From: Rhodopseudomonas faecalis
Lineage (GTDB): Bacteria; Pseudomonadota; Alphaproteobacteria; Rhizobiales; Xanthobacteraceae
Length of the DNA stretch: 41,398 bases
NCBI RefSeq assembly: GCF_003217325.1
Contig: NZ_QJTI01000029.1
Coordinates: forward strand, 1 to 41,398
Reading direction: 5' to 3'
Shown here: positions 29,928-32,948 of the stretch, piece by piece
How positions within the stretch are numbered: the stretch's first letter is position 1
Layout: each line of letters opens with the position of its first letter
Translations under genes and position numbers: made by a program
The notes under the pieces: model-generated
The model's database searches: none
What the model was told of the DNA's origin: nothing
Seen by the model: the letters and a program-made list of their open reading frames with translations, nothing else

Positions 29928-31316
29928 ATGGCGGACACTTTGCCGGGGAGCACGCCGCTCGCCCCCACCAGCTATCCGCCGCGCCGCGCCGTGATCGGCT
30001 GGATTTTGTTCGATTGGGCGGCGCAGCCCTATTTCACGCTGATCACCACCTTCATCTTCGCCCCCTATTTCACCACCTTCGTGGCGCCTGATCCGGCGAC
30101 CGGACAATCATGGTGGGGCTTTGCCACCGGCAGCGCCGGTTTGGTGATCGCGCTGGCATCGCCGCTGCTCGGCGCGGTCGCCGATGCCAGCGGCCGGCGC
30201 AAGCCCTGGATCTTCGCATTCGGCGCGCTGCTGGTGATCGGCTCGTCGCTGATGTGGTTCGGCAAGCCGGGCGATCCCAGTCTGATCCTGCCGCTGCTGA
30301 TCGCCTATGGCATCGCCACCATCGGCGTCGAATTCGCCACCGTATTCAACAATGCGATGATGCCGACGCTGGTGCCGCCGGAAAAGATCGGCCGACTGTC
30401 CGGCACCGGCTGGGCCACCGGCTATGTCGGCGGCATCCTGTCGCTGGTGCTGGTGCTGGGCTTTCTCGCCGGCAGCCCGGAGACCGGCCGCACGCTGTTC
30501 GGCATCACGCCCTGGTTCGGGCTCGATCCAGCGACGCATCAAGGCGACCGCATCACCGGGCCGCTGACCGCGCTGTGGTTCGTGGTGTTCGTGCTGCCGA
30601 TGTTTCTGTTCACGCCGGATTTCCCGGCGCGCAGCAAAGTGCGCTCGGCGCTGCGCCAGGGAGTTGCCGAGCTGCGCGACACGCTGCGGCAATTGCCAAA
30701 GCACCGCGCGATGGCGACCTTTCTGATCGCCAACATGATCTACACCGACGGGCTGGTGTCGCTGTTTGCCTTTGGCGGCATCTATGCGGCCGGCACCTTT
30801 GGTTGGCACACGCTGGAGATCGGCACGTTCGGCGTGCTGCTGGCGATCGCCGCGGCGTGCGGCGCTTATCTCGGCGGCAAGCTCGACGATGCGTTCGGGC
30901 CGAAGCGGGTGATCGCCGGCAGCCTGGTGCTGCTGCTGATCGCGGTGTTCGGCATCCTGCTGATCGACCGCGATTCCATTCTGTTCATGGCGGTGACGCC
31001 GCCGCAGCCGGGCGGCGGGCTGTTCGCCTCGCCCGCGGAACAAGCCTATCTGCTGCTCGGCAGTCTGATCGGCATTGCAGGCGGCCCGCTGCAAGCGGCC
31101 TCACGCACGCTGCTGATCAAGCTGGCGCCGCGCGATCGCGTTGCGCAGTTCTTTGGGCTGTTCGCGCTGACCGGCAAGGTCACCGCGTTCATCGGCCCGA
31201 TGCTGATCGGGCTGATCACCGCGCTCACCGCCAGCCAGAAAGGCGGGCTTGCGGTGCTGGTGCTGTTCTTTGTCGCTGGTCTGGCGCTGCTGGCCACGGT
31301 GCGGGTACGGCGGTGA
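29928..31316 (+). CDS. MFS transporter, Atg22/UMF1-like
   Basis: 462 aa with a strong GGGAGGA site upstream. About 12 hydrophobic segments are visible. The first helix region (VIGWILFDWAAQPYFTLITTFIFAPYF) with DWA and the VADASGRRKPWIF loop after helix 2-3 are typical of the vacuole-effluxer Atg22-like (UMF1) group of the major facilitator superfamily. The bacterial substrate is unknown. It is divergent from ggt, so a link to amino-acid or peptide efflux is possible but only inferred. Confidence 0.88.
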   Translation: MADTLPGSTPLAPTSYPPRRAVIGWILFDWAAQPYFTLITTFIFAPYFTTFVAPDPATGQSWWGFATGSAGLVIALASPLLGAVADASGRRKPWIFAFGALLVIGSSLMWFGKPGDPSLILPLLIAYGIATIGVEFATVFNNAMMPTLVPPEKIGRLSGTGWATGYVGGILSLVLVLGFLAGSPETGRTLFGITPWFGLDPATHQGDRITGPLTALWFVVFVLPMFLFTPDFPARSKVRSALRQGVAELRDTLRQLPKHRAMATFLIANMIYTDGLVSLFAFGGIYAAGTFGWHTLEIGTFGVLLAIAAACGAYLGGKLDDAFGPKRVIAGSLVLLLIAVFGILLIDRDSILFMAVTPPQPGGGLFASPAEQAYLLLGSLIGIAGGPLQAASRTLLIKLAPRDRVAQFFGLFALTGKVTAFIGPMLIGLITALTASQKGGLAVLVLFFVAGLALLATVRVRR

Positions 31317-31390: not shown

Positions 31391-31419
31391 TGGACAATCA
31401 GGCCGGTCTGGGCTATAGG
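31391..31419 (+). promoter_or_regulatory. Promoter of the DAHP synthase leader
   Basis: TGGACA (-35, 31391-31396), a 17-bp spacer and TATAGG (-10, 31414-31419). The -10 box ends 6 nt before the leader ATG at 31426, so transcription would start at or next to the A of that ATG. An upstream TTGACA at 31337-31342 has no good -10 partner. Confidence 0.65.
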
Positions 31420-31425
31420 ACGACC

Positions 31426-31503
31426 ATGATCCACTCGACCGCCTCGTTTTGGTACTTTTATTACGACAGCTCGCTGGCGGCGGGAGGATTGCGCTCGATC
31501 TGA
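31426..31503 (+). CDS. Aromatic-rich leader peptide of the DAHP synthase gene
   Basis: 25 codons, ATG 31426 to TGA 31501-31503. Residues 8-13 are F-W-Y-F-Y-Y (codons 31447-31464), covering all three aromatic amino acids consecutively. There is no Shine-Dalgarno sequence, and the promoter spacing suggests a leaderless message. The downstream codons include CTGGCGGC (31474-31481), which can pair with the terminator's 5' arm. This is the architecture of an attenuator leader peptide: a ribosome slowed at uncharged aromatic codons should leave the antiterminator segment free. The peptide itself is probably not structural. Confidence 0.85.
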   Translation: MIHSTASFWYFYYDSSLAAGGLRSI

Positions 31504-31535
31504 AGATTGCAGCATCAAATCCGAAAAGCCGCCAG
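31474..31535 (+). promoter_or_regulatory. Predicted antiterminator pairing of the attenuator
   Basis: CTGGCGGC (31474-31481), inside the leader ORF, is exactly complementary to GCCGCCAG (31528-31535), the 5' arm of the terminator. The two structures are mutually exclusive. A weaker CCGCC (31439-31443) just before the aromatic codons could pair with GGCGG (31476-31480), acting as the protector segment. Confidence 0.7.
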
Positions 31536-31550
31536 ACCTGGCGGCTTTTT
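31524..31550 (+). terminator. Attenuator terminator before the DAHP synthase gene
   Basis: AAAAGCCGCCAG (31524-31535) and CTGGCGGCTTTT (31538-31549) form a near-perfect hairpin ending in five T residues (31546-31550). It lies 20 nt after the leader stop codon and 40 nt before the gene start. Confidence 0.93.
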
Positions 31551-31567
31551 CGTTTAAGCCGGCGGGT

Positions 31568-31581
31568 CTCCTGATCAGGAG
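31568..31581 (+). other. 14-bp perfect palindrome covering the Shine-Dalgarno
   Basis: CTCCTGATCAGGAG contains the AGGAG (31577-31581) that serves the GTG start at 31591. In RNA it could hide the ribosome-binding site; as DNA it could be an operator. A chance palindrome is possible. Confidence 0.5.
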
Positions 31582-31590
31582 CTAACTGCC

Positions 31591-32685
31591 GTGTTGACCA
31601 CCACCGACGACCTTCGCCTCAAGCAGATCACCGAACTCAGTACACCCGACGAGGTGATGCGCGAGATTCCGCGCACGCTTGCCGCGACGCGCACCGTTGC
31701 CGCCGCCCGCAGCGCGATTCACGACATCCTCACCGGGGCCGACGACCGACTGATTGTCATCGTCGGCCCTTGTTCGATTCACGATCCGGCTGCGGCCATG
31801 GACTATGCCAGCCGTCTGGCGGCGCTGCGCGAGGCCCTCGCCGACCGGCTCGTGATCGTGATGCGGGTGTATTTCGAAAAGCCGCGCACCACTGTGGGGT
31901 GGAAAGGGCTGATCAACGACCCCGATCTCGACGGCAGCTTCCGGATCGACAAGGGGCTGCGGCTGGCGCGGCAGGTGCTCGCGGCCGTCAACAAGCTCGG
32001 CTTGCCGGCCGCGACCGAATTCCTCGATCTGATTACGCCGCAATACATCGCCGATCTGATCGCCTGGGGCGCGATCGGCGCGCGCACCACCGAAAGCCAG
32101 ATCCATCGCGAGCTGGCGTCCGGCCTGTCGTGCCCGATCGGCTTCAAGAACGGCACCGACGGCAATGTCCGGATCGCGGCCGAGGCCGTGAAATCGGCCG
32201 CGCAGCCGCATCATTTCATGGCGGTCACCAAGGGCGGCCGCAACGCGATCGCGGCGACCACGGGTAACAGCGACTGCCACATCATCCTGCGCGGCGGCGT
32301 TGCGCCGAACTTTGATGCCGCAAGTGTTGATGCCGCCGCAGTCGTGCTCGGCAAGGTCGGCGTCGCGCCGCGCGTGATGATCGATACCAGCCACGCCAAC
32401 AGCGGCAAGAAGCCGGAAAATCAGCCGGCGGTGGCGGCCGACGTGGCGCGTCAGGTGGCGGCCGGTGACAACCGCATCATTGGCTTGATGATCGAGAGCA
32501 ACATCGCGGCCGGCCGGCAGGATGTGGTGCCGAATAAGCCGCTGACCTACGGCCAGAGCATCACCGATGGCTGCATCGACTGGGCGACCACCGAAAGCGT
32601 GCTGCACGAACTCGCCGCCGCCGTGGAAGCCAAGCGTGCTGCCCGGCAACCCCAGCGCCAGCAGCACGGCGGTGCCGCGGCCTGA
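31591..32685 (+). CDS. aroG: 3-deoxy-7-phosphoheptulonate synthase, class I (AroG/F/H type)
   Basis: 364 aa from a GTG start with AGGAG 9 nt upstream. It condenses phosphoenolpyruvate and erythrose-4-phosphate, the first step of the shikimate pathway. Class I motifs are visible: GPCSIHD with metal-ligand C61, EKPRTTVGWKGLINDP, the GARTTESQIHRELASGL loop, KNGTDGN, IDTSHANSGK with a metal His, MIESNI and SITDGCIDW. The C-terminal tail is Gln/Arg/Ala-rich. Transcription appears to be controlled by the upstream attenuator, in addition to any allosteric feedback. Which feedback isozyme type it is cannot be read safely from the sequence. Confidence 0.95.
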   Translation: MLTTTDDLRLKQITELSTPDEVMREIPRTLAATRTVAAARSAIHDILTGADDRLIVIVGPCSIHDPAAAMDYASRLAALREALADRLVIVMRVYFEKPRTTVGWKGLINDPDLDGSFRIDKGLRLARQVLAAVNKLGLPAATEFLDLITPQYIADLIAWGAIGARTTESQIHRELASGLSCPIGFKNGTDGNVRIAAEAVKSAAQPHHFMAVTKGGRNAIAATTGNSDCHIILRGGVAPNFDAASVDAAAVVLGKVGVAPRVMIDTSHANSGKKPENQPAVAADVARQVAAGDNRIIGLMIESNIAAGRQDVVPNKPLTYGQSITDGCIDWATTESVLHELAAAVEAKRAARQPQRQQHGGAAA

Positions 32686-32756
32686 AGCACGCGCAGCGGG
32701 ATCGCGATCATTCGCTGTCCCGCTATCGCTTCATCGTCGATACCACCTAACTAATC

Positions 32757-32845
32757 GTCATGGCCGGGCTCGTCCCGGCCATCGACGTCTTTGAACTTGG
32801 TCAGCGTGTAAGACGTGGATACCCGCGACAAGCGCGGGCATGACG
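32757..32845. repeat. Dispersed inverted-repeat element, copy B
   Basis: Arm 1 is ATGGCCGGG...CCCGGCCAT followed by CGACGTCTT (about 32783-32791); arm 2 is AAGACGTGGAT (32810-32820) followed by CCCGCG...CGCGGG. It is flanked by GTCATGG/CATGACGG. It has the same plan as copies A and C and lies between convergent aroG and purH. Confidence 0.85.
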
Positions 32846-32897
32846 GTCATTGGTGGGAGCCGTTGGTATTCAAACCCTACACGGCTCCTAAAACGCG

Positions 32898-32922
32898 AAT
32901 GCCCGCGCAAAGCGCGGGCATT
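32898..32922 (-). terminator. Hairpin terminator of purH
   Basis: A perfect 11-bp stem, AATGCCCGCGC (32898-32908) with GCGCGGGCATT (32912-32922), AAA loop. On the minus strand it is followed closely by a TTTT. It begins 27 bp past the purH stop. Confidence 0.7.
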
Positions 32923-32948
32923 GCCAGTCCCCTTGAGGACGATTGGTC

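Follow-up and report, generated by a model that had tools for sequence, protein, structure and literature searches.

Predicted ribosome-mediated attenuator with phenylalanine, tryptophan and tyrosine codons upstream of a class I DAHP synthase gene in Rhodopseudomonas faecalis and other Pseudomonadota

A class I 3-deoxy-D-arabino-heptulosonate-7-phosphate (DAHP) synthase gene of Rhodopseudomonas faecalis is very probably controlled by a ribosome-mediated transcription attenuator, judging from the sequence of its leader region and from the conservation of that region in relatives. The gene lies on the forward strand of contig NZ_QJTI01000029.1 (assembly GCF_003217325.1), which we analyzed as a single window of 41,398 nucleotides (nt); all positions given below are positions of this window. 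To our knowledge, little has been established outside the enteric bacteria about the control of DAHP synthase, the enzyme with which the synthesis of aromatic amino acids begins. An initial annotation of the window had proposed an attenuator at this site, and the proposed architecture was borne out in its parts, its position, its conservation beyond the family, and its compensatory changes in both the antiterminator (segments 2:3) and the terminator (segments 3:4).

In the proposed mechanism, transcription would start at or beside the leader AUG. When Phe-, Trp-, or Tyr-tRNA is scarce, the leading ribosome would slow within a run of six aromatic codons and cover segment 1, which would free segment 2 (CUGGCGGC...GGAUU) to pair with segment 3 (AAUCC...GCCGCCAG); the terminator would then fail to form and aroG would be transcribed. 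When all of the aromatic tRNAs are charged, the ribosome would clear the run and leave at the stop codon, segment 1 would pair again with segment 2 as a protector, and segment 3 would pair with segment 4, such that transcription would stop ~40 bases ahead of aroG.

Results

Leader ORF and alternative RNA structures in the window

The putative leader open reading frame (ORF) encodes MIHSTASFWYFYYDSSLAAGGLRSI and extends from 31426 to 31503 of the forward strand, with 25 codons from ATG to TGA. As initially annotated, it carries a run of codons for the end products of the pathway, TTT TGG TAC TTT TAT TAC (F-W-Y-F-Y-Y, 31447-31464), which we take as the candidate sensing run. On both strands of the window, this is the sole ATG-initiated ORF of 10 to 45 amino acids with at least five aromatics per seven residues. 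First-order shuffles produced such an ORF at a rate of 0.005 per window and none with six of seven in 200 shuffles, a chance estimate that applies to the 41-kilobase window and not to the whole genome.

An intrinsic terminator formed by segments 3 and 4 (31523-31555) is located between the leader ORF and the structural gene. It was described initially as near-perfect, and the fold agrees, with a stem of 31523-31534 paired to 31539-31550 at -19.0 kcal/mol, a stability reached by 0 of 200 shuffles, and with Ts at 31546-31550 and 31553-31555, which read UUUUU-CG-UUU in the RNA. The identity of the arms was likewise correct: CTGGCGGC occurs at 31474-31481 and again at 31538-31545, while GCCGCCAG occurs at 31528-31535. 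The antiterminator extends further than had been described, since GGAUU at 31486-31490 pairs with AAUCC at 31518-31522. Segment 2 (31474-31490) therefore comprises CTGGCGGC at 31474-31481 plus GGATT at 31486-31490, segment 3 (31518-31535) comprises AATCC at 31518-31522 plus GCCGCCAG at 31528-31535, and a small predicted hairpin (31493-31513) that spans the leader stop codon is enclosed between them. Segment 1 (31428-31443), the predicted 5' strand of the protector, pairs with 31476-31490. The folding energies of these alternatives were -23.3 kcal/mol for the 1:2 protector, -30.8 kcal/mol for the 2:3 antiterminator including its enclosed hairpin, and the -19.0 kcal/mol given above for 3:4. The protector was matched in stability by 2 of 200 shuffles and in strength by 3 of 300 synonymous recodings.

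Conservation of the leader and selection at the RNA level

A sample of the family contained a class I gene in 23 of 198 genomes, and all 23 of these genes were preceded by the leader. A run and pairings left unconserved among relatives, the outcome that had been named at the outset as counting against an attenuator, was looked for and not observed. Among 103 loci fetched by protein similarity, 76 had both leader and terminator by rule, and inspection of 10 further loci showed an ORF with aromatic codons together with a hairpin that resembles a terminator, although L101 was weak. The leaders include, for example, MITVATSYFWYFSYDSSLAAGGSRSI in Bradyrhizobium, MIHLTATYWYFSSSLAAGGLRSI in Mesorhizobium, MSAKFYFYFFWYLRPLADREG in the Burkholderia group, MNASCRSFYFWYYGFPMPLAEEGSRSP in Xanthomonas, and MTCFFFTGYFYFSNSNPKAVE in the Oxalobacteraceae. 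Seventeen loci were without leader plus terminator (L059, L066, L069, L072, L081, L087, L089, L092-L099, L102, and L103); L059 had just 52 bases of upstream sequence, and L081 has an aromatic ORF upstream and no terminator by rule. We also noted that L066 and L081, close relatives at the level of the DAHP synthase, come from metagenome-assembled genomes titled Melainabacteria and Anaerolineae, and that L092-L099, L102, L103, and their relatives, which lack the leader by our rules, belong to Rhodocyclales, Methylotenera, Ferrovum, and other beta- and gammaproteobacteria, where a loss is possible.

Covariation was examined in an alignment of 73 of the 103 loci, from which three identical loci and 27 that failed the leader and terminator rules had been dropped. 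Pairing was possible in 93.0% of the cells of the 3:4 helix, where double changes numbered 44 versus 13.8 in shuffled alignments, and in 80.2% of the cells of the 2:3 helices, where they numbered 81 versus 44.7. None of 500 shuffles attained the covariation score of 0.161 (3:4) or that of 0.171 (2:3), and sliding the partners lowered the scores to 0.03-0.11. Within this alignment, covariation cannot be shown for the GGCGG/CCGCC core, because a single base there takes part in more than one pairing and is almost invariant. Changes that are informative occur instead at the edges of the core, within the inner helix, and among the rows that the alignment excluded. Among the latter, L022 and L023 have compensatory changes of the 2:3 core to CUGGCAG/CUGCCAG and L062 to AGCGG/CCGCU, while arm 4 retains a G-U pair. 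The leader region thus contains an antiterminator that excludes the terminator, overlaps the end of the leader ORF, and covaries.

The reading frames of these leaders point in the same direction. Segment 2 of L022 and L023 consists of nearly the same nucleotides, which are read as PLAEEG in L022 and as PWQRKG in L023, and the reading of this region in Devosia is SRWQPKG. Near-identical RNA is thus read in different frames in at least two lineages, and therefore the downstream half of the leader is conserved as RNA rather than as peptide. Synonymous recoding of 61 leaders with distinct peptides gave a mean of -17.7 kcal/mol for the natural 1:2 pairing versus -13.7 kcal/mol for the recodings, and of -18.2 versus -14.4 kcal/mol for 2:3. 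When the RNA downstream of a stalled ribosome was folded up to arm 3, the antiterminator appeared in 75 of 76 loci. Conserved alternative structures ahead of a biosynthetic gene would also be expected of a metabolite-binding RNA (riboswitch), but neither the window nor any of 18 related loci matched an Rfam family at its gathering score, and conservation is highest in the columns for arms 2 to 4, for the T run, and for the Us within aromatic codons; a riboswitch in place of a leader read by ribosomes is consequently a very improbable explanation in our judgment.

Several observations weigh against the attenuator. The covariation shuffles ignore the relatedness of the rows, and two of the simpler counts showed little or no excess: of 500 shuffles, 12 (3:4) and 38 (2:3) had as many pairs with a double change, and 47 and 298, respectively, had as many further pair types. 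The same is true of the inner 2:3 helix, which was paired in just 64.3% of cells. Single leaders were often unremarkable, with 15 or fewer of 300 recodings being as strong in only 25 of 61 (1:2) and 13 of 61 (2:3) leaders, and the 2:3 duplex of the window itself was matched in strength by 74 of 300 synonymous recodings. At equilibrium, the RNA past a stalled ribosome (31465-31552) prefers the terminator, at -37.8 versus -30.8 kcal/mol for the antiterminator, and antitermination must therefore win by folding first; the order of folding would have to decide the outcome, as is usual for attenuators. Lastly, folds made without a ribosome and without arm 4 left arm 3 mostly free in just 29 of 76 loci, and the off state therefore rests on the terminator hairpin plus the protector.

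Ribosome at the stop codon versus protector

One part of the original proposal was not supported. It had a ribosome at the leader stop codon covering arm 2; judging from the size of a ribosome footprint, a ribosome on the stop at 31501 would protect the RNA only to ~31484, which would probably leave arm 2 (31474-31481) outside; the stop codon is 20 nt past the arm-2 core. The 1:2 protector is probably a better explanation of the off state in this window. The protector is strong here, is strong by energy in the alphaproteobacterial leaders, and is weak in most Oxalobacteraceae. Stop codons and spacings were measured in 60 leaders (L055 was omitted), of which seven, six from Oxalobacteraceae plus L080, have the stop codon 5 to 8 nt past the arm-2 core together with protectors averaging -8.8 kcal/mol. 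In these seven, a ribosome at the stop codon may itself mask segment 2. Overall, however, the correlation between protector strength and stop distance is weak and confounded by descent (Spearman -0.25, p 0.05).

Promoter and leaderless translation

A predicted sigma-70-type promoter (31391-31419, forward strand) consists of a -35 element TGGACA at 31391-31396, a 17-nt spacer, and a -10 element TATAGG at 31414-31419, which ends 6 nt ahead of the leader ATG, such that transcription would be expected to start at or next to the ATG itself. The same layout (-35, exactly 17 nt, -10, 6 to 8 nt, leader ATG) was found by pattern at 34 of 41 alphaproteobacterial loci, versus 2 of 556 ATGs of the window as a control, and four of the seven loci that failed the pattern have a TATA box together with a -35 of ATGACA, which lies outside the pattern. 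Because the promoter sits at a fixed short distance from the ATG, the leader ORF is probably leaderless in the alphaproteobacteria. This does not extend to the Burkholderia-type loci that were inspected, where a TATAAA-like box is located ~45 nt upstream of the ATG. A generic promoter and terminator scan of the window flagged neither element, probably due to the stem absorbing the T run and to the TATAGG -10.

The trpL transcript of Sinorhizobium meliloti is similarly reported to start at its AUG and to be leaderless (PMC7298713, PMC10117765). A terminated leaderless RNA of ~125 nt would likewise be made from the present leader, and one could suppose that it acts chiefly in trans, as a small RNA or through its peptide in the manner of Sinorhizobium rnTrpL/peTrpL, with cis control of aroG being secondary. 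We consider this improbable, since the peptide past the aromatic run is not conserved across lineages and its frames differ, which makes a conserved function of the peptide unlikely.

Distribution across Pseudomonadota

A covariance model built from 73 loci was used to search 397 Pseudomonadota genomes under stricter filters, and the resulting counts are lower bounds. It gave 65 matches in 63 genomes, 64 of which were checked; the remaining match (genome G350, E 0.0079) overlaps the main hit of that genome on the opposite strand. Among the 64, 58 matches in 58 genomes, including the first 57 listed, were located 21 to 253 nt upstream of a class I DAHP synthase gene, and for 56 of them (all except L124 and L132) a script identified a leader with aromatic codons. 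It should be noted that the training loci include family genomes of the searched sample, the matches of which are not independent, and that other searched genomes may overlap with the named training loci. In the R. faecalis genome, the model has one real match and its next hit has an E value of 0.37.

This distribution bears upon the possibility that the hairpin is simply the 3' terminator of the upstream major facilitator superfamily transporter gene (29928-31316) and that the small ORF arose by chance. In favor of that idea, the transporter gene has the same orientation, and ~206 bases separate its end from the stem. However, the 58 of 64 matches that precede a DAHP synthase gene do so across other families and classes, the aromatic run would be expected by chance at only 0.005 per window, and the promoter is kept at a fixed distance from the leader ATG. 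We therefore regard a transporter terminator as hardly credible and retain the attenuator.

A class I DAHP synthase homologue (E 1e-20 or better) is encoded by 220 of the 397 genomes. Among these, the model matched in all 26 alphaproteobacteria and in 32 of the 194 genomes elsewhere. TyrR or TrpR control of DAHP synthase is known in enteric bacteria and may hold for many of the genomes without an attenuator.

The six other matches that were checked did not precede a DAHP synthase gene. L168 (2550-2669), a weak match (E 1.8e-4), is located upstream of a pheS gene (PF01409) and contains what is presumably a pheST leader, which shows that aro and pheST leaders are alike in their design. L167, L169, L170, L171, and L173 (E 1.6e-4 to 0.0065) precede neither a DAHP synthase gene nor pheS and were read as chance. 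The loci of one family, f46 (L148-L158, L161, L165, L166, and L172), have a further type of leader, for example FYFWFSVPGGREA; 13 of 15 f46 genomes have two class I DAHP synthase matches, and the attenuator match precedes such a gene at just one place per genome.

Amino acids read by the leader

The codons of the run suggest that Phe, Trp, and Tyr are all sensed, a reading that we hold with about even confidence. Trp is present in the run of all 45 leaders from five groups (10 from the genus of R. faecalis, 19 from a group of the same family, 3 from Mesorhizobium, 5 from the Devosia group, and 8 from Xanthomonadales), as well as in 11 of 14 Burkholderia-group leaders and 2 of 4 from other alphaproteobacteria. 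Against a universal three-way sensor stand the named Oxalobacteraceae leaders, in which 0 of 12 runs contain Trp; L140, a leader that looks Oxalobacteraceae-like, does carry it. In the 60 leaders measured, the last aromatic codon is separated from the GGCGG core of arm 2 by 12 to 20 nt (median 14).

Codon choice was counted in the runs of 75 of the 86 leader loci (L041, L047, L075, L079, L080, L084, L085, L086, L090, L091, and L101 were omitted) and compared with codons 1 to 340 of the genes that follow. Phe codons shifted strongly, with TTT:TTC of 176:28 in the runs versus 42:390 in the genes (Fisher p 8e-84, with codons of related species counted as independent), while Tyr codons shifted mildly, with TAT:TAC of 92:100 versus 152:278. 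An unpaired U-rich run would favor TTT as well, and the TTT bias is therefore no proof of slow decoding.

These codon counts would also fit the same attenuator with a narrower input, in which not all three amino acids but just one or two, Phe being the likeliest, set the output and the Trp and Tyr codons are passengers or fine tuning. The 12 Oxalobacteraceae leaders without Trp fit such an arrangement, as does the aroR leader of Corynebacterium glutamicum, which has Phe-Tyr-Phe and was reported to respond to Phe and not to Tyr (PMC11802643). Counting the other way are the retention of Trp in all 45 leaders of the five groups and the preserved spacing from the run to the arm. On balance, such a narrower input seems to us a real possibility, albeit one that is somewhat less probable than sensing of all three.

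The regulated gene and its isozymes

The gene downstream of the attenuator (31591-32685, forward strand) has a GTG start codon preceded by AGGAG at 31577-31581. Its product matches PF00793 (E 6.9e-93; 310.9 bits versus a cut-off of 25.5) and the aroFGH family TIGR00034 (520 bits versus a cut-off of 173.2), both of which support its initial annotation as a class I DAHP synthase, while it misses the stricter cut-off of the AroG equivalog (524 versus 568).

A class II DAHP synthase is also encoded by the R. faecalis genome and by all 26 of the alphaproteobacterial genomes that carry the class I gene. The attenuated class I gene is therefore a second isozyme in the alphaproteobacteria, where it is presumably induced by starvation, and the original statement that the leader controls the entry of carbon into the pathway was too strong. 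The 400 bases upstream of the class II gene of R. faecalis contained no stretch with three or more aromatics per seven residues.

A protein tree with class labels assigned from record titles places the genus of R. faecalis together with Mesorhizobium (support 100/97) and apart from Bradyrhizobium, although the latter belongs to its own family; the sequences of the family sample fall among Bradyrhizobium (Nitrobacteraceae) records. The 41 rows from alphaproteobacteria are united in a single group (96/73), which adjoins a group of eight Xanthomonadales rows. From this grouping, the gene and its leader seem to have been disseminated as a unit, in part through horizontal transfer, and in the genus of R. 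faecalis both were probably acquired in this way.

Between aroG and a purH-like gene, 32740-32925 contains short palindromic repeats (CCGGGCT...GTCCCGGCCAT and CCGCGCAAAGCGCGGGCAT). Similar repeats are found downstream of the gene in L002, L009, and L010, and by their look these are dispersed intergenic repeats.

Discussion

The class of mechanism described here is, with high confidence, long-known ribosome-mediated attenuation of the trp, phe, and his type. What appears to be new, as read from the leaders, is a widespread proteobacterial leader family on DAHP synthase genes, usually with codons for all three aromatic amino acids. At relaxed Rfam thresholds, the window gave a weak full-length match (31428-31554) to Phe_leader RF01859, the attenuator of pheA, and this phenylalanine leader is a likeness rather than a membership, as the score of 26.5 bits is below the gathering score of 55. 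The same relaxed scan also produced an RNAI match (31.1 bits versus 47, E 0.0004), which is below threshold and was read as chance, in addition to seven weaker hits.

Among the closest precedents is C. glutamicum aroR-aroF, in which a DAHP synthase gene is subject to ribosome-mediated attenuation through a Phe-Tyr-Phe leader (PMC11802643, PMC4046766). That system is actinobacterial, no Trp codon is named for it, and the reported response is to Phe and not to Tyr, whereas the leader type of this window combines Phe, Trp, and Tyr codons and is common to alpha-, beta-, and gammaproteobacteria. The uORFC-13-1 motif ahead of Acholeplasma aroF is a predicted Phe-reading upstream ORF with a terminator (PMC8632094); as described there, it is a computational prediction, limited to Acholeplasma and environmental sequences, and reads Phe only. 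Within the gammaproteobacteria, the 5' untranslated region of Shewanella aroF has been listed as "Attenuator sensing tyr-tRNA", citing work of Camakaris in 1980 on Escherichia coli, and that of aroH as "Possible transcription termination", citing Zurawski in 1981 (PMC2659441). Attenuation or termination has also been proposed for E. coli aroF and aroH (PMC8632094, PMC2659441), and for two species of Vibrio the Merino database is cited as the source of an attenuator ahead of aroA(I)-tyrA (PMC1173090). These proposals concern gammaproteobacterial genes of another branch and involve tyrosine or an unspecified signal, they are computational or older, and the accessible parts of these sources describe no Phe-Trp-Tyr leader. 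S. meliloti trpL-trpE resembles the present case as an alphaproteobacterial attenuator with a leaderless leader ORF, but it senses Trp and acts upon anthranilate synthase. In our literature search, as far as the accessible text of its sources extends, no leader that combines Phe, Trp, and Tyr codons was described for a DAHP synthase gene of proteobacteria, although the Merino database or older work may hold predictions.

In E. coli, the same enzymatic step and the same end products are handled by the allosteric isozymes AroF, AroG, and AroH together with the DNA-binding regulators TyrR and TrpR (PMC5343134), as opposed to one RNA leader. Our more extended interpretation, which we consider evenly poised between right and wrong, is that a single leaderless leader would act as a three-input OR gate, through which a second DAHP synthase is switched on whenever Phe, Trp, or Tyr runs short, and that gene and leader together form a cassette that has spread, partly horizontally, through three proteobacterial classes, with the Trp input being absent in some lineages. 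If this is true, one RNA would do what E. coli does with three feedback-regulated isozymes plus TyrR and TrpR. The attenuator would provide a compact, testable, sequence-defined rule for when many rhizobia and their relatives, as well as members of the Burkholderia and Xanthomonas groups, make a DAHP synthase, which in the alphaproteobacteria is a second one. The natural variants, with or without Trp and with the stop codon combined with a strong or a weak protector, would constitute a ready comparative series, and the leader could possibly serve as a sensor for aromatic starvation.

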